The notes beneath the pieces were generated by a model. The model was given only the letters and a program-made list of their open reading frames with translations, was not told the origin of the DNA and searched no databases. From contig NZ_JARGES010000027.1 in NCBI RefSeq assembly GCF_029210365.1, positions 310,001-374,000 on the forward strand: 64,000 bases of DNA. The letters are read 5' to 3'. Position numbers and translations under genes: made by a program. Positions 26,738-34,394 of the stretch are shown in pieces (position 1 is the first letter of the stretch; each line of letters starts with the position of its first letter). This stretch comes from Mesorhizobium sp. YIM 152430 (GTDB lineage: Bacteria > Pseudomonadota > Alphaproteobacteria > Rhizobiales > Rhizobiaceae).

Positions 26738-26916
26738 GTCTGTCTCCGCTCGTAAATAAGTAGACGCTAAACTCCGCAACGCGTCAGTCGTCAACCGGTT
26801 GCGTCGAGACTGGAACGAAGCTTTCCCCAACGCCGTGCCATCCTTGCAGCCGCGCATTGCGATGATGTATGCCGGTTGTCATCTCGAATGATCCGATCGG
26901 TTGGGGGACCGCCTTG

Positions 26917-29502
<2,586 letters not shown>

Positions 29503-29505
29503 GCA

Positions 29506-29826
29506 CTATTCCGGCATCTTGACGGTTACCTCGATCGATTCGTACCACGCCGCGACATTCGCGATCTGCTCGGCGGTCAAATCCTTGACGACGACCGACA
29601 TCATCGCATTCTCGCGTTTGCCGTCCTGGAACGCCTTCAACTGCGTGGCCAGATAGATCGCGCTTTCGCCTGCAATGTTCGGCGCGATGGGAAGCCGAGC
29701 GATGCCGTCGATGCCGTGACAGGCCTGGCAACGCGCCGCAACCTTGCGCCCTTCGGCCGGGTCGGCGGCCAACGCGCCTGACGTCGCGAGGCCCAGCGCG
29801 CCTGCGACAAGAACTGAATATTTCAT
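29506..29826 (-). CDS. Periplasmic monohaem cytochrome c
   Basis: 106 residues with a Sec signal peptide (MKYSVLVAGALGLATSGALAA). The haem-binding motif is C33-Q-A-C36-H37. RLPIAPNIAGESAIYLATQLKAFQDGKRENAMM is the usual class I cytochrome segment with the distal Met ligand. The closest types are cytochrome c4/c5-like single domains. It follows the sorbosone-dehydrogenase-like gene in the same orientation and is the likely electron acceptor for it, and possibly for the GMC dehydrogenase across the locus (inference). A 67-base spacer with a hairpin separates the two genes. Confidence 0.9.
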   Translation of the reverse strand: MKYSVLVAGALGLATSGALAADPAEGRKVAARCQACHGIDGIARLPIAPNIAGESAIYLATQLKAFQDGKRENAMMSVVVKDLTAEQIANVAAWYESIEVTVKMPE

Positions 29827-29850
29827 GGATGCTCCCGTGATGCCGCCCCC

Positions 29851-29882
29851 CGACCTCCCGAGCGCAATCGCTCGGAAGGTCG
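29851..29882 (-). promoter_or_regulatory. Intercistronic hairpin between dehydrogenase and cytochrome c genes
   Basis: A 14-bp stem with a single mismatch and a CAAT loop (CGACCTCCCGAGCG / CGCTCGGAAGGTCG) sits 12 bases beyond the dehydrogenase stop. On the minus strand it is followed by a G-run, not T, so it is more likely a stability or processing element than a terminator. Confidence 0.6.
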
Positions 29883-29893
29883 TTCGGCGTCGT

Positions 29894-31144
29894 TTAGTTG
29901 CCGTAGGAAATGCGGTAGAGCGCGCCGACGAGATCGTCGGAGACGAGGATCGATCCGTCGCGCAGTTGCGCCACGTCGACGGGCCGGCCGAGATATTCGC
30001 CGTTCTCGTCGAGCCAGCCATCGGCGAAGACTTCCGTCTCGCCGGCGCTGCCGTCCTCGTTCACTGCGGTAAACATCACCCGTGCGCCGACGGGCGTCGT
30101 CCGGTTCCAGGAGCCGTGCTGGGCCGAGAAGATGCCGCCACGGTACTTTGCCGGAAACTGCGTGCCCGAATAAAAGCTCATGCCCAGATCGGCGGCGTGG
30201 GCATCCATCTCCACGGCCGGCATCACGGTATCGGCCGGCGGCTCCTCGCTCTTGTACTCATTGGTCCGGGTCGACCCGCCTCCATACCAGGGGAAGCCGA
30301 AATGCTGACCCGCTGCCGTCTGACGGTTGAGTTCGCCGGGCGGAATGTCGTCCCCCATTCCGTCGACCTGGTTGTCGGTGAACCAGAGTTCGCCATTGGC
30401 CGGGTTGAAGTCGTGGCCGACCGAATTGCGCACGCCATACGTATAGACCTCGCGGCCCTTGCCATCCTGGCCGACCCGGATGATGCCGCCGATGCCTTCG
30501 CGCTCGTAGAGATCCTTCTTCTCGGGCGGCGGCACGTTGAAGGGCTGGCCGAGCGAGATGTAGAGCTTGCCGTCAGGCCCGACGCGGCAGACGCGCGCGG
30601 TGTGGTTGTAGGAAACCTCCGCTTCCGGCACCAGCGTCTCCATCACCTTGAAGGCCGCGACGTCGGGGCTTTCATAGAAGAACTCTGCGGCGGGGTAGGA
30701 GAGAACCCGGTTCTGCTCGGCGATGTAGAGAACACCCTCCGGCGAGAAGCACGGCCCGTTCGGTATGGCCATGGCCAGCGAAGGCGCGAAGTCCTTGACC
30801 TCGTCGGCCACCCGGTCCTTGTCGCGGTCGGTTACGGCCCAGACCTTGGTCTTGCGCGTGCCGACGAATGTGACGATCCCCTGCGGCCCGACAGCCATGT
30901 GGCGCGCATCGGGGACGATCGCATAGAGATCGATCTTGAAGCCGCTTGGCACGCGCACCTTTTCGAGGATCCTGCGGATCGCCGCGGCCTTCTCGCCGCC
31001 CTGCTCGATCACCTGGAATTCGCTGGTTCCCGTCGTCTGGAAATTGCTCAGCCGCTCGAGATTGGAATCTTGCGTCTGTGCGAAGGCGAGCGTCGATGCA
31101 CCCGCCAATAGAAGTGCTGCCGCGAGCAGACTTGTCGTTTTCAT
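29894..31144 (-). CDS. Sorbosone dehydrogenase-like (PQQ-type beta-propeller) periplasmic protein
   Basis: 416 residues with a signal peptide (MKTTSLLAAALLLAGASTLAFA). The mature protein reads as a six-bladed beta-propeller of the soluble glucose/sorbosone dehydrogenase family. Blade-type segments include RHMAVGPQGIVTFVGTR, NGPCFSPEGVLYIAEQNR and VCRVGPDGKLYISLGQPFN. The signature YTYGVRNSVGHDFNPANGELWFTDN is the catalytic/PQQ-site region, with the conserved Arg-Asn and His. It probably oxidises a sugar or alcohol in the periplasm with PQQ; no pqq synthesis genes are in the window. It is transcribed before the cytochrome c gene, and a twin dyad lies 57 bases upstream of its start. Confidence 0.87.
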   Translation of the reverse strand: MKTTSLLAAALLLAGASTLAFAQTQDSNLERLSNFQTTGTSEFQVIEQGGEKAAAIRRILEKVRVPSGFKIDLYAIVPDARHMAVGPQGIVTFVGTRKTKVWAVTDRDKDRVADEVKDFAPSLAMAIPNGPCFSPEGVLYIAEQNRVLSYPAAEFFYESPDVAAFKVMETLVPEAEVSYNHTARVCRVGPDGKLYISLGQPFNVPPPEKKDLYEREGIGGIIRVGQDGKGREVYTYGVRNSVGHDFNPANGELWFTDNQVDGMGDDIPPGELNRQTAAGQHFGFPWYGGGSTRTNEYKSEEPPADTVMPAVEMDAHAADLGMSFYSGTQFPAKYRGGIFSAQHGSWNRTTPVGARVMFTAVNEDGSAGETEVFADGWLDENGEYLGRPVDVAQLRDGSILVSDDLVGALYRISYGN

Positions 31145-31201
31145 GGCTTCCTCCCAGAATTACCTTACGGAAGGAAGATCAGACCCGGCGGTTGAACAGT
31201 G

Positions 31202-31219
31202 GTGGTAGCCCGCTGCTAC
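31202..31219. promoter_or_regulatory. 18-bp dyad operator, copy 1 (upstream of the sorbosone dehydrogenase-like gene)
   Basis: GTGGTAGCCCGCTGCTAC, an imperfect palindrome (GTRGYAGC-CC/GG-GCTGCYAC type) lying 57 bases upstream of the dehydrogenase ATG at 31144. It matches the dyad at 31680-31697 in 16 of 18 positions. Confidence 0.65.
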
Positions 31220-31226
31220 ACGAAAA

Positions 31227-31532
31227 TTATGCCGCCTCGTGCCGCAGCGCTTCCAGTTCCGCGTCCTGCGGTCGGTGACCGCGCAGATAGAGTGCGCAGG
31301 TCGTGCGCAGCATTGACGCGAAGTTCGGGATCTCGCCATTGATCTCGATCGCCTCGTCATAGAGCTTCGACAGGAATTTCGGCGTCGACAGCCCTTGGCT
31401 TTGCGCAATTTCATCCAGCAGCAGCCAGAACGTGGCCTCGAGTTGGATGCTGGTCGAATGACCGCCGATCCGCACCGAGCGGTTGACCGGCCGGTAACCT
31501 TCCGGATCTTGTCCGGCAAACACTCTGCACAT
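31227..31532 (-). CDS. Ribbon-helix-helix domain protein (RHH_4-like)
   Basis: 101 residues. After a short lead (MCRVFAGQDPEGYRPVNRSV), the segment RIGGHSTSIQLEATFWLLLDEIAQSQG fits an RHH DNA-binding fold: a polar beta-strand followed by two helices. STPKFLSKLYDEAIEINGEIPNFASMLRTTCALYLRG completes the family pattern. Such proteins are predicted DNA-binding regulators. A strong ribosome-binding site (GGAGG, 8 bases upstream) supports the ATG at 31532. It lies between the two operator-like dyads, and is a candidate for binding them, though a regulator encoded elsewhere is equally possible. Confidence 0.82.
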   Translation of the reverse strand: MCRVFAGQDPEGYRPVNRSVRIGGHSTSIQLEATFWLLLDEIAQSQGLSTPKFLSKLYDEAIEINGEIPNFASMLRTTCALYLRGHRPQDAELEALRHEAA

Positions 31533-31679
31533 GGCATTTTCCTCCGCAGATATTGTTTTTCTTGGCCCATTGATCGGCGCCGCTTCATGCCTGCCTGCCG
31601 GCTCCGCTCGAAGTGTCCGGGAAGGCAGGCTTAAGGGCAAGTCGTACTTTAGCACGGCAATTTGCGCTCCGCTTCATCC

Positions 31680-31697
31680 GTAGTAGCCCGCTGCCAC
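31680..31697. promoter_or_regulatory. 18-bp dyad operator, copy 2 (upstream of the VOC-GMC operon)
   Basis: GTAGTAGCCCGCTGCCAC, identical to copy 1 at 16 of 18 positions, with the two differences in symmetric positions (3 and 16). It ends 56 bases before the TTG start of the VOC gene, almost the same distance as copy 1 from its gene. Confidence 0.65.
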
Positions 31698-31753
31698 CAC
31701 AGGCCGTCACGACGGACCATAATCCTATCCACAATCATCACTCGGAGGCCGAT

Positions 31754-32149
31754 TTGGCGAAAGCAATCCATTCGATGATCAGGGTTCTGGAGGAGGCGAG
31801 GTCGGTCGACTTCTACCGGACGGCATTCGCGCTCGACATTGCCGAGCGGTTCGATTTCGAAACGTTCACGCTTGTCTATCTGCGCAACGCCGAGGCCGAT
31901 TTCGAGGTCGAGTTGACGATCAACAAGGGCCGCACCGATCTCTATGAACTCGGTGACGGCTACGGCCACATCGCCTTTTGCGTCGACGATCTCGATGCCG
32001 AACACGCCCGTTTCAAGGCGAGCGGTCTCGCCCCGCGCGACATCGTCGAGTTCAAGAACGAGGGCAGGCTCATCGCCCGCTTCTTCTTCGTCGCCGATCC
32101 GGACGGATACAAGATCGAGGTGCTGCAAAGACACGGAAGATACGTTTGA
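31754..32149 (+). CDS. VOC family protein, lactoylglutathione lyase (glyoxalase I)-like
   Basis: 131 residues. Two beta-alpha-beta-beta-beta modules run from MIRVLEEARSVDFYRTAFALDIAERFDF to GYGHIAFCVDDLDAEHARFKASG and FFFVADPDGYKIEVLQRHGRY. The His in GHIAF and the Glu in YKIEVLQ are the usual metal ligands of glyoxalase I. The start is a TTG at 31754 with GGAGG five bases upstream; there is no ATG in a sensible place. It heads an operon with a Tat-exported small subunit and a GMC oxidoreductase, so it might detoxify an aldehyde or 2-oxoaldehyde product (inference). Confidence 0.85.
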   Translation: MAKAIHSMIRVLEEARSVDFYRTAFALDIAERFDFETFTLVYLRNAEADFEVELTINKGRTDLYELGDGYGHIAFCVDDLDAEHARFKASGLAPRDIVEFKNEGRLIARFFFVADPDGYKIEVLQRHGRYV

Positions 32150-32229
32150 GATCGCGGCCGCGTTGGGAGGCGCGGCCGTAGCCAGTCAATCGCGCCGATG
32201 GGCGCGACCAGCAAGCCAGGGAGGAAACC

Positions 32230-32772
32230 ATGGTTACAGTCTATCGAAGAGATCCCGGCAGGGAGCCCGTTCTTTCGCGACGGGCACTTTTGAAGGGAAG
32301 CGGCGCCGCGCTTGTTCTTGTGGTCACGGGGAGCGCCGTCGTCAGCCCGCAGCAGGCCTGGGGCATGGAGCCCGCAGCCTTGAAACCCGAAACGATGGCG
32401 ACGCTCATCCAGATGGCGCGCGACATCTATCCGCACGACCATGTGGCCGAGCGCTTCTATGTGATCGCGATGAAGGATCACGACACCAAGTCGGGCAGCG
32501 ACGCAGCCCACAAGGAACTGATCGAGACCGGCATCGCCGATCTCGACCGGCGGGCAGGCGAGGGCGGCTATCGTGGCATCGGCTGGGAGGAAGATCGCGT
32601 CAAGCTGCTTCATGAGATTGAGGCGACGCCCTTCTTCCAGACGGTTCGCGGCGGAATGGTCGTCGGGTTCTACAACCAGAAGGAACTGTGGCCTCTGTTC
32701 GGATACGAAGGCGAGTCCTTCTCCCAGGGCGGCTACATGACCCGCGGCTTCGACGACATCGAGTGGCTCTGA
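32230..32772 (+). CDS. Tat-exported gluconate 2-dehydrogenase subunit 3-like protein
   Basis: 180 residues. The N-terminus has a twin-arginine signal (LSRRALLKGSGAALVLVVTG, residues 15-34). The mature part, LIQMARDIYPHDHVAERFYVIAMKDHD...GYRGIGWEEDRVKLLHEIEATPFF...YNQKELWPLFGYEG, is the gluconate 2-dehydrogenase subunit 3 family pattern. In membrane FAD sugar dehydrogenases the small subunit carries the Tat signal and co-exports the signal-less GMC flavoprotein. The next gene encodes exactly such a partner, 50 bases downstream. It sits 80 bases after the VOC gene. Confidence 0.88.
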   Translation: MVTVYRRDPGREPVLSRRALLKGSGAALVLVVTGSAVVSPQQAWGMEPAALKPETMATLIQMARDIYPHDHVAERFYVIAMKDHDTKSGSDAAHKELIETGIADLDRRAGEGGYRGIGWEEDRVKLLHEIEATPFFQTVRGGMVVGFYNQKELWPLFGYEGESFSQGGYMTRGFDDIEWL

Positions 32773-32822
32773 CCCCGCTCGACCCGATCATTCAGCCATA
32801 GACAGGTTTCCGGGAGGATATC

Positions 32823-34394
32823 ATGCCTGCTCCTTATGCACTTTCCGACGACACTGTCGTCGTCATCATCGGTTCGGGCGCCGGCGGCGGCACGCTGGCC
32901 AACGAACTCGCCCAGAAGGGTGTCGATGTGGTCGTGCTCGAAGCCGGGCCGCGCATCGAATATGAGGACTTCATCAACGACGAATGGGATTCATTCGGCC
33001 AGTTGGCTTGGCTTGACAACCGTACCACCTCCGGCAGTTGGCGCGTGGCGAAGGACTTTCCCAATCTGCCGGCATGGATCGTCAAGGCAGTCGGCGGCAC
33101 GACGACCCACTGGGCCGGCGCCTCGCTGCGCTTCCAGGAGCACGAATTCAAGACGCTGACCAATTACGGGCCCGTCGAAGGCGCCAGTCTTCTCGACTGG
33201 CCGATCACTCTTGCCGATCTCGAACCCTACTACGAGAAGGCAGAGGACAAGATGGGCGTGACCCGGACCCACGGCATCGAGGGTCTGCCCGGCAACAACA
33301 ACTTCAAGATATTGAAGGCCGGGGCCGACAAGCTCGGCTACACCGATTGCCACACCGGCAACATGGCGATCAATTCCGGCTTCCGCGATGATCGCATGGG
33401 ATGCCAGCAGACGGGTTTCTGCTTCCAGGGCTGCAAATGGGGCGCGAAATGGTCGACGCTCTATACCGAGATTCCCAAGGGCGAGGCGACCGGCAAGCTG
33501 GAAGTGCGGCCTGAAAGCCATGTCATCAAGATCGAGCATGATGACAGCGGCAAGGTGACAGGCGTCGTCTATGCCGACAAGGACGGCAATTTGCAGGAAC
33601 AGAAGGCCCGCATCGTCGCCGTGGCCGGCAATTCGATCGAAAGCCCGCGCCTGCTCTTGAACTCGGCTTCGTCGAAATATCCTGACGGGCTCGCCAATTC
33701 GTCCGGCCAGGTCGGCAAGAACTACATGCGTCACACGACCGGTTCTGTCTACGCCATCTTCGATCAACCGGTCCATTTCTACCGCGGCACGACCATGGCC
33801 GGCATCATCCGCGACGAGGCGAAGCACGATCCGTCGCGCGGCTTCGTCGGCGGCTACGAATTGGAGACGCTGGCGCTCGGCCTGCCCTTCATGGCCGCCT
33901 TCCTCAATCCGGGCGGCTGGGGCCGGTCCTTCGCATCCGCGCTCGACCAGTACGACCACATGGCCGGGCTGTGGATCGTCGGCGAGGACATGCCGCAGGA
34001 GAACAACCGCATTTCCCTTCACACGGAACTCAAGGACAAATACGGGATGCCCGTTCCGGACGTCGCCTTCACCGACCATCCGAACGATACCGCGATGCGC
34101 GACCACGCCTACAGCCGAGGCATCGCGCTCTATGACGCCGTCGGTGCGACCCGCACCTTCCCGACGCCGCCCTATCCCTCGACCCACAATCTCGGCACCA
34201 ACCGGATGAGCAAGAAGCCCGAGGACGGCGTCGTCAACCAATGGGGCCAGACCCACGACATCGCGAACCTGTTCGTCTCCGACGGCAGCCAGTTCACGAC
34301 CGGCGCGGCCGAGAACCCGACCCTGACCATCGTCGCGCTCGCGATCCGTCAGGCGGACCACATCGCCAGGGAGATGTCGTCCGGCACGATTTGA
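32823..34394 (+). CDS. GMC family FAD-dependent oxidoreductase
   Basis: 523 residues. The N-terminal FAD motif is VVIIGSGAGGGTLANELAQKG with the ribose-binding Glu in VVVLEAGPR. GTTTHWAGASLRF is the flavin-contact loop. FQGCKWGAKWSTL is a Cys-containing family segment. STHNLGTNRMSKKPEDGVVNQWGQ holds a likely catalytic His, and FTTGAAENPTLTIVALAIRQADHI the second active-site position (Asn). There is no signal peptide of its own, fitting co-export with the Tat small subunit upstream. It probably oxidises a sugar, sugar acid or alcohol, passing electrons to a cytochrome c (inference). GGGAGG just upstream is the ribosome-binding site. Confidence 0.9.
   Translation: MPAPYALSDDTVVVIIGSGAGGGTLANELAQKGVDVVVLEAGPRIEYEDFINDEWDSFGQLAWLDNRTTSGSWRVAKDFPNLPAWIVKAVGGTTTHWAGASLRFQEHEFKTLTNYGPVEGASLLDWPITLADLEPYYEKAEDKMGVTRTHGIEGLPGNNNFKILKAGADKLGYTDCHTGNMAINSGFRDDRMGCQQTGFCFQGCKWGAKWSTLYTEIPKGEATGKLEVRPESHVIKIEHDDSGKVTGVVYADKDGNLQEQKARIVAVAGNSIESPRLLLNSASSKYPDGLANSSGQVGKNYMRHTTGSVYAIFDQPVHFYRGTTMAGIIRDEAKHDPSRGFVGGYELETLALGLPFMAAFLNPGGWGRSFASALDQYDHMAGLWIVGEDMPQENNRISLHTELKDKYGMPVPDVAFTDHPNDTAMRDHAYSRGIALYDAVGATRTFPTPPYPSTHNLGTNRMSKKPEDGVVNQWGQTHDIANLFVSDGSQFTTGAAENPTLTIVALAIRQADHIAREMSSGTI

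Follow-up and report, generated by a model that had tools for sequence, protein, structure and literature searches.

Why do a propeller-type dehydrogenase and a flavoprotein dehydrogenase stand back to back in one rhizobial genome, and what might they oxidize together? The question is raised by positions 29506 to 34394 of a 64,000-nucleotide stretch of Mesorhizobium sp. YIM 152430 (contig NZ_JARGES010000027.1, positions 310,001 to 374,000), referred to here as the window. One arm of this locus encodes a beta-propeller of the pyrroloquinoline quinone (PQQ) dehydrogenase type (PROP) and a c-type cytochrome (CYT). The other encodes a glyoxalase I (VOC), a small subunit with a twin-arginine translocation (Tat) signal (SMALL) and a flavoprotein of the GMC family (GMC). 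The linkage of the two arms is strongly supported by a shared operator and by their repeated joining in different genomes. With somewhat better than even confidence, the two arms and the ribbon-helix-helix gene between them (RHH), six genes in all, are read as one regulon that serves to oxidize acetol (hydroxyacetone), or a 1-hydroxy-2-ketone close to it, in the periplasm. The locus is laid out as follows, with distances in base pairs (bp).

29506..29826, minus strand: CYT, a small single-heme c-type cytochrome with a CQACH motif (PF00034 above cut-off; stop at 29506)
29894..31144, minus strand: PROP, a six-bladed beta-propeller of the PQQ glucose/sorbosone dehydrogenase type (GSDH, PF07995, 49 bits, cut-off 25)
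31200..31221, minus strand: operator 1, between the RHH stop and the start codon of PROP, which lies about 75 bp away
31227..31532, minus strand: RHH, an RHH_4 ribbon-helix-helix protein of 101 amino acids (PF13467, 83.5 bits)
31680..31699, plus strand: operator 2, lying about 74 bp upstream of the start codon of VOC
31754..32149, plus strand: VOC, a GloA-like glyoxalase I (PF00903 above cut-off)
32230..32772, plus strand: SMALL, a Tat-signal small (hitch-hiker-like) subunit (TIGR01409 above cut-off)
32823..34394, plus strand: GMC, a catalytic subunit of the flavin adenine dinucleotide (FAD)/3Fe-4S type (GMC_oxred_N and GMC_oxred_C above cut-off; stop at 34394)

What ties the arms together is an inverted repeat of 18 bp (GTAGTA-N6-TACTAC-like) that precedes the PROP and the VOC genes alike, at a distance of about 75 bp. 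By reading of intergenic regions, one repeat was found before VOC in the eight divergent loci examined, and before PROP in the window genus. A matrix of the form GTRGTA-N6-TRCYAC-C was then trained on VOC-side sites alone (57 unique sites, a few of them noise from site-less loci). In the window, only operators 1 and 2 reach a score of at least 12. In the whole genome the exact pattern GTRGTANNNNNNTRCYAC occurs at these two sites alone (reversed-pattern control, 7 matches), and in the genus-mates G001-G003 at the corresponding two sites alone (reversed controls 1, 6 and 4). Operator 1 scores 20.0, a value reached by 0 of 200 shuffles. All four module-holding members of the genus carry the operator before PROP, with scores of 20-27 at 74-78 bp from the start; on the VOC side the spacing is 73-74 bp.

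The operator also follows PROP to other places. Where PROP lies apart from the GMC module, the operator precedes it in 6 of 17 SMALL-positive genomes (G172, G313, G094, G130, G137 and G062; scores 15.4-20.9) and in 0 of 24 SMALL-negative ones (top score 8.4; a 25th has no upstream sequence), a difference with p 0.003 at a cut of 15 that was fixed after the scores were seen. The 158 background stretches peak at 10.2, and two PROP genes scoring 8.1 and 8.4 (G101, with the module, and G306, without) were treated as unclear. Adding Methylocella silvestris (module present) and G024 (no SMALL), neither with an operator, brings the totals to 6/18 and 0/25. No operator was found before PROP in nine collinear joined loci, as would be expected of a gene within an operon.

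RHH is likely to regulate both arms. Among 101 module loci, training sites included, the operator was found in 98 of 99 with RHH and in 0 of 2 without (L092 and L193); L111 and L213, with too little upstream sequence, were left out of this suggestive covariation. RHH is the presumed binder of the repeats. By sequence reading, the right half of the operator falls at the expected -35 box, ahead of a TAATC/TGATC-like -10 element. Such a position suits a repressor, and an activator is also compatible with it. Among proteins of solved structure, RHH is clearly related to one, 3kk4 (uncharacterized protein BP1543; E 2.4e-17).

The distribution of the arms points the same way. In 297 genomes drawn from the order and searched with PROP and SMALL, PROP orthologues (E below 1e-120) occur in 47 and SMALL in 66. 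Both arms occur together in 22 genomes, where 10.4 would be expected (Fisher p 4e-5, uncorrected for kinship apart from a count at genus level), and at that level in 19 of the 29 PROP genera, where 9.9 would be (p 9e-5). They lie side by side in 5 of the 22 dual-arm genomes (G000, the window's own, with G153, G170, G197 and G219). Among the matches listed in a GMC-alignment scan are 80 named loci from rhizobia, roseobacters and relatives. RHH, VOC, SMALL and GMC are all present in 80/80 of these, and PROP lies within the fetched flanks in 5/80: Stappia, Roseibium aggregatum PHM038, Actibacterium, a Rhodobacteraceae record and a metagenome-assembled genome. The arms diverge around RHH in the window genus (four genomes). 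The one-strand order RHH-VOC-SMALL-GMC-PROP-CYT was found in G170, G197, G219, G153, Stappia, Roseibium, Actibacterium and the Rhodobacteraceae record.

The arms have been joined repeatedly. On a GMC tree of 81 rows, made after 22 of 103 had been set aside, the joined label needs 6 changes by parsimony, at least 4 of them forced by strongly supported branches. On a PROP tree of 56 rows it also needs 6 changes by parsimony, and the window genus, G153 and the Stappia/Rhodobacter group are placed apart, with long branches and open forks leaving the details unsure. Closer to the window, both arms are present in G001-G003 and missing from G004, a genome that is 98% complete; in the family, the GMC module occurs in G007 with no PROP match, and PROP occurs in G024 with no SMALL. 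Two genomes named Roseibium aggregatum (L177 and L179) differ in that PROP-CYT adjoins the GMC module in one and is absent from its flanks in the other; their GMC proteins are not sisters in the GMC tree.

A preliminary description of this DNA had proposed much of this arrangement from the letters alone. Its span and its five gene types agree with the CYT and GMC stops and with the family profiles, although its list lacks the RHH gene that separates the arms. It had spoken of shared operator-like sites, which the two sites in the window and their uniqueness in the genome confirm, and of two arms that belong together, now backed by operator, joining and co-occurrence. Co-occurrence across genomes had been named beforehand as the place where the pairing could fail, and the arms do co-occur. 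The oxidoreductases were rightly taken as exported, since the leaders of both arms agree, and the glyoxalase-like protein counted into the unit is a glyoxalase I by Pfam.

RHH, PROP and CYT are read leftward and VOC, SMALL and GMC rightward. The RHH region was searched as 31227-31544 and the ATG at 31532 taken for the start; the TTG at 31754 was chosen for VOC from relatives and a preceding GGAGG. PROP and CYT have Sec-like leaders, as read from sequence. VOC has no apparent leader and was therefore taken as cytoplasmic. It is called GloA-like by sequence and filed by PF00903 because it missed the curated NCBIfam cut-offs (NF050074, 115 bits against 165; TIGR00068, 65 against 120). Its H/E/H/E residues align with those of a solved lactoylglutathione lyase (glyoxalase I), and we take these to be the metal-ligand positions of that enzyme.

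What does the GMC arm oxidize? In Methylocella silvestris, the GMC enzyme Msil_1641 is propane-induced, and Msil_1643, two loci on, is a putative lactoylglutathione lyase; deletion of Msil_1641 slowed growth on propane, led acetol to accumulate on that substrate and left no growth on 2-propanol or acetone, and the propane monooxygenase lies at Msil_1649-1651 (available part of PMC7364539). The locus (L189) was found through a published deletion primer, with matches in 0/397 order-sample genomes and 1/397 second-family genomes and all four primers present there. Compared with the window, its GMC is 74% identical (521 amino acids), VOC 66%, SMALL 47% and RHH 47%. The RHH, VOC, SMALL, GMC order and the inverted repeat are the same. 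A difference from the window is a separate c-type cytochrome gene that M. silvestris carries between RHH and VOC (L189 11388-11918), directly behind an operator with perfect arms and a score of 23.7. A cluster of gmcAB and glyoxalase I was likewise shown to be induced on 2-propanol and acetone in verrucomicrobia (PMC8630023 and PMC12235487, in the parts available). As in the window, this Methylacidiphilum C3 cluster (gmcAB-gloA) joins a GMC enzyme, placed in the periplasm by Awala et al., to a small subunit (Tat-borne in the available part of PMC8630023) and a glyoxalase I, co-induced. The comparison is by description, and the available parts of these descriptions (PMC8630023, PMC12235487) mention no RHH, PROP or CYT. 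The syntenic counterpart of GMC in M. silvestris belongs to the acetol pathway by genetic test, which makes acetol the best-supported substrate. The likeliest role of GMC is thus that of an acetol dehydrogenase that produces methylglyoxal.

The closest solved relatives of GMC are the large subunits of fructose dehydrogenase (FDH) and FAD-glucose dehydrogenase (FAD-GDH), whose complexes carry a multi-heme cytochrome subunit. GMC C194, C200 and C204 align with the FDH cysteines of the 3Fe-4S cluster and are invariant in 18/18 sequences. The FAD-linking H96 and the active-site H455 and N498 are aligned and invariant in the same 18. SMALL is encoded next to GMC, as is the Tat small subunit in the three-subunit FDH/FAD-GDH complexes, and its twin arginine is invariant (17/17). 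The window thus resembles FDH (7w2j) and BcGDH (6a2u) in having a GMC subunit with the FAD histidine and three cluster cysteines and a Tat-borne small subunit. It differs in that its only cytochrome is the separate single-heme CYT, encoded in the divergent operon, with no multi-heme subunit in the operon; for this reason the cluster was not filed as a three-subunit FDH/FAD-GDH complex. The FDH cluster cysteines correspond by motif to BcGDH Cys212/218/222, and the inter-subunit disulfide of BcGDH (both in the available part of PMC6719666) is absent here, with Gln at that GMC position and no Cys anywhere in SMALL. SMALL matched no known small-subunit family in Pfam or NCBIfam and had no firm PDB sequence match. 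In a fold search, likeness to small subunits of the FDH/GDH kind was weak (Z 4.3, for that of FDH, and 4.0) and stood among unrelated rows; the top row, an F1Fo ATPase (Z 5.1), was judged a helical look-alike. Taken together, the Tat subunit, the cluster cysteines and the cytochrome gene argue for a periplasmic, cytochrome-linked enzyme rather than an NAD-linked one.

The PROP arm appears to have kept a PQQ-binding site. The AlphaFold model of PROP (pLDDT, the predicted local distance difference test, 81.7) finds PQQ-type glucose/sugar dehydrogenases as its 16 best fold rows (Z 29.6-36.7, followed by a drop to 25.6). H181, at the place of the catalytic His, and R239-N240 have aligned counterparts in 3a9g and 7cdy; the Arg-Asn pair is presumably part of the PQQ site. 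PROP shares its fold, catalytic His region and RN motif with CcPDH (6jt5), AA12 (6i1q), Asd (2g8s) and sGDH (1c9u), and an HGSWNR..P.G motif with CcPDH, yet is only 17-24% identical to these six-bladed sugar dehydrogenases. Across 22 relatives, 66-92% identical and aligned together with a 43% paralogue, R239 and H343/G344/W346/N347/R348 are invariant, and H181 and N240 nearly so. A conserved catalytic His has been described for the PQQ glucose/sorbosone dehydrogenase family (available part of PMC4133262).

Of 55 PROP loci, 48 have a CYT relative immediately after PROP; those without are L078, L172 (PROP near contig end), L207, L209, L210, L211 and L212. Two tandem CYT-like matches, possibly a di-heme protein or two genes, follow PROP in L073, L074, L075, L079, L099, L102, L104, L191, L166, L177, L178 and L182. 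In two genomes, G081 and G286, PROP-CYT directly follows pqqBCDE (L190 2122-7135 and L191 354-5392), which argues that the PROP subfamily uses PQQ and is tied to its synthesis in some lineages. Over the sample, pqqC passes its cut-off in 102 of 297 genomes, among them 28 of the 47 with PROP against 16.1 expected; it is missing in 19 PROP genomes, the window's own included.

The six genes would then act as follows. RHH would bind both inverted repeats at the -35 regions of the divergent operons and switch them together. SMALL would carry folded GMC out through the Tat system, and GMC, with FAD and a 3Fe-4S cluster, would oxidize acetol to methylglyoxal. PROP may take this 2-oxo-aldehyde on to the 2-oxo-acid pyruvate. 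Sorbosone is a substrate of relatives in the family of PROP; it is a 2-oxo-aldehyde like methylglyoxal, as sorbose is a hydroxyketone like acetol, so the pair would parallel the path from sorbose through sorbosone to 2-keto-gulonate. Electrons from both enzymes would leave via c-type cytochromes, CYT among them, and methylglyoxal reaching the cytoplasm would be handled by VOC. A sequential oxidation from alcohol through aldehyde to acid had been suggested in the preliminary description. Its general form fits, with acetol, a hydroxyketone, rather than a sugar alcohol as the likeliest substrate on the strength of the M. silvestris counterpart. The suggestion that one cytochrome serves both enzymes fares less well: in M. 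silvestris and some other genomes a c-type cytochrome is encoded within the GMC operon itself, following the same operator, so GMC is not by nature dependent on the cytochrome of the propeller. For the window, a shared cytochrome and the propeller step are what we infer. The complete periplasmic route from acetol through methylglyoxal to pyruvate, with an undescribed PQQ-dependent methylglyoxal dehydrogenase, a dedicated RHH and PQQ from neighbours, is put forward tentatively, at rather less than even confidence.

Several observations weigh against the single acetol regulon. No PROP orthologue was found in 44 of the 66 SMALL genomes, and 11 of the 17 unlinked PROP genes in module-bearing genomes have no operator at score 15. 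The covariation of RHH and operator turns on two RHH-less loci, and the RHH-bearing locus L214 has no operator. The methylglyoxal step of PROP is drawn by chemical analogy with sorbosone, and we know of no activity or tested substrate for the PROP subfamily. The propeller homologue of M. silvestris (59%) lies away from the module, with neither a neighbouring CYT nor an operator found, so the acetol regulon there excludes it. Msil_1641 was also read by its authors as NAD-linked (available part of PMC7364539); the cytochrome gene in that acetol operon speaks against such a reaction. Finally, pqqC had no match over cut-off in the window's own genome. Searches for pqqE in 12 genomes gave matches over cut-off in 4 and none in the five genus genomes or in G170, G197 and G219. 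PQQ would therefore need scavenging, as E. coli does, and this is the simplest reading for the host of PROP. The same genome encodes a second full-length GSDH protein (G000:C1:77794-78918, 194 bits), despite pqqC and pqqE not being found.

Could PROP belong to the same regulon and serve another step? It might act upstream or in parallel on a diol, lactaldehyde or a sugar aldehyde instead of methylglyoxal, and its closest solved relatives are indeed sugar dehydrogenases. This is possible and somewhat unlikely, as the exact operator marks only these two operons in the window genus and the predicted product of GMC is itself a 2-oxo-aldehyde.

An unlikely reading, and one that touches GMC itself, is that the substrate is a sugar, ketose or otherwise (fructose, sorbose, dihydroxyacetone), with the acetol link confined to methanotrophs. 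The relationship to fructose dehydrogenase fits such a role, and rhizobia are not, to our knowledge, propane users. Set against this are the full-length identity to Msil_1641 in the company of the same VOC, SMALL and RHH neighbours, a mean column identity of 86% across 18 GMC proteins and the retention of glyoxalase I in all of the named module loci listed.

The cytochrome of the window prompts a third alternative, that PROP-CYT was recruited mainly for CYT. PROP would be idle or in the apo form, and CYT would serve as acceptor for GMC in place of the operon cytochrome of the M. silvestris type. The GMC operon of the window does lack the cytochrome that L189, L094, L096 and L169 have between RHH/operator and the remaining operon, and the genus lacks detectable pqqC/pqqE. 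The conservation of PROP, with its invariant residues, speaks against an idle protein. G094 and G313 have their own cytochrome in the GMC operon and an operator before PROP nonetheless, so replacement is not a rule, and several GMC modules (L071, L081, L085 and L088) have neither cytochrome close by. We consider this explanation quite improbable.

That the arms are chance neighbours is highly improbable and was rejected on the operator and tree results: they were not seen adjacent in 17 of 22 dual-arm genomes, some of them assemblies in many contigs, but a common operator stands before both and nowhere else in the genome, and marks unlinked PROP only where a GMC module exists, and the trees show the arms joined repeatedly.

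A hybrid histidine kinase, presumably CckA-like, lies beside CYT at 26869-29502, and many Mesorhizobium loci have a 72-75% identical copy close to their GMC module. It was not counted as a cluster member; at a score of 12 or more, the operators of the window are confined to the two known sites.

What does the acetol regulon mean for these bacteria? No report of this gene combination was found in the literature searched. The module of RHH, glyoxalase, SMALL and GMC, common in rhizobia, roseobacters and relatives, is now tied to acetol oxidation and given an operator and a probable regulator. It is predicted to be periplasmic and cytochrome-linked, not NAD-linked as assumed for M. silvestris. 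PROP is an added enzyme that may remove methylglyoxal outside the cytoplasm. If the full route is true, its reliance on scavenged PQQ would make complete use of acetol conditional on the surrounding community.

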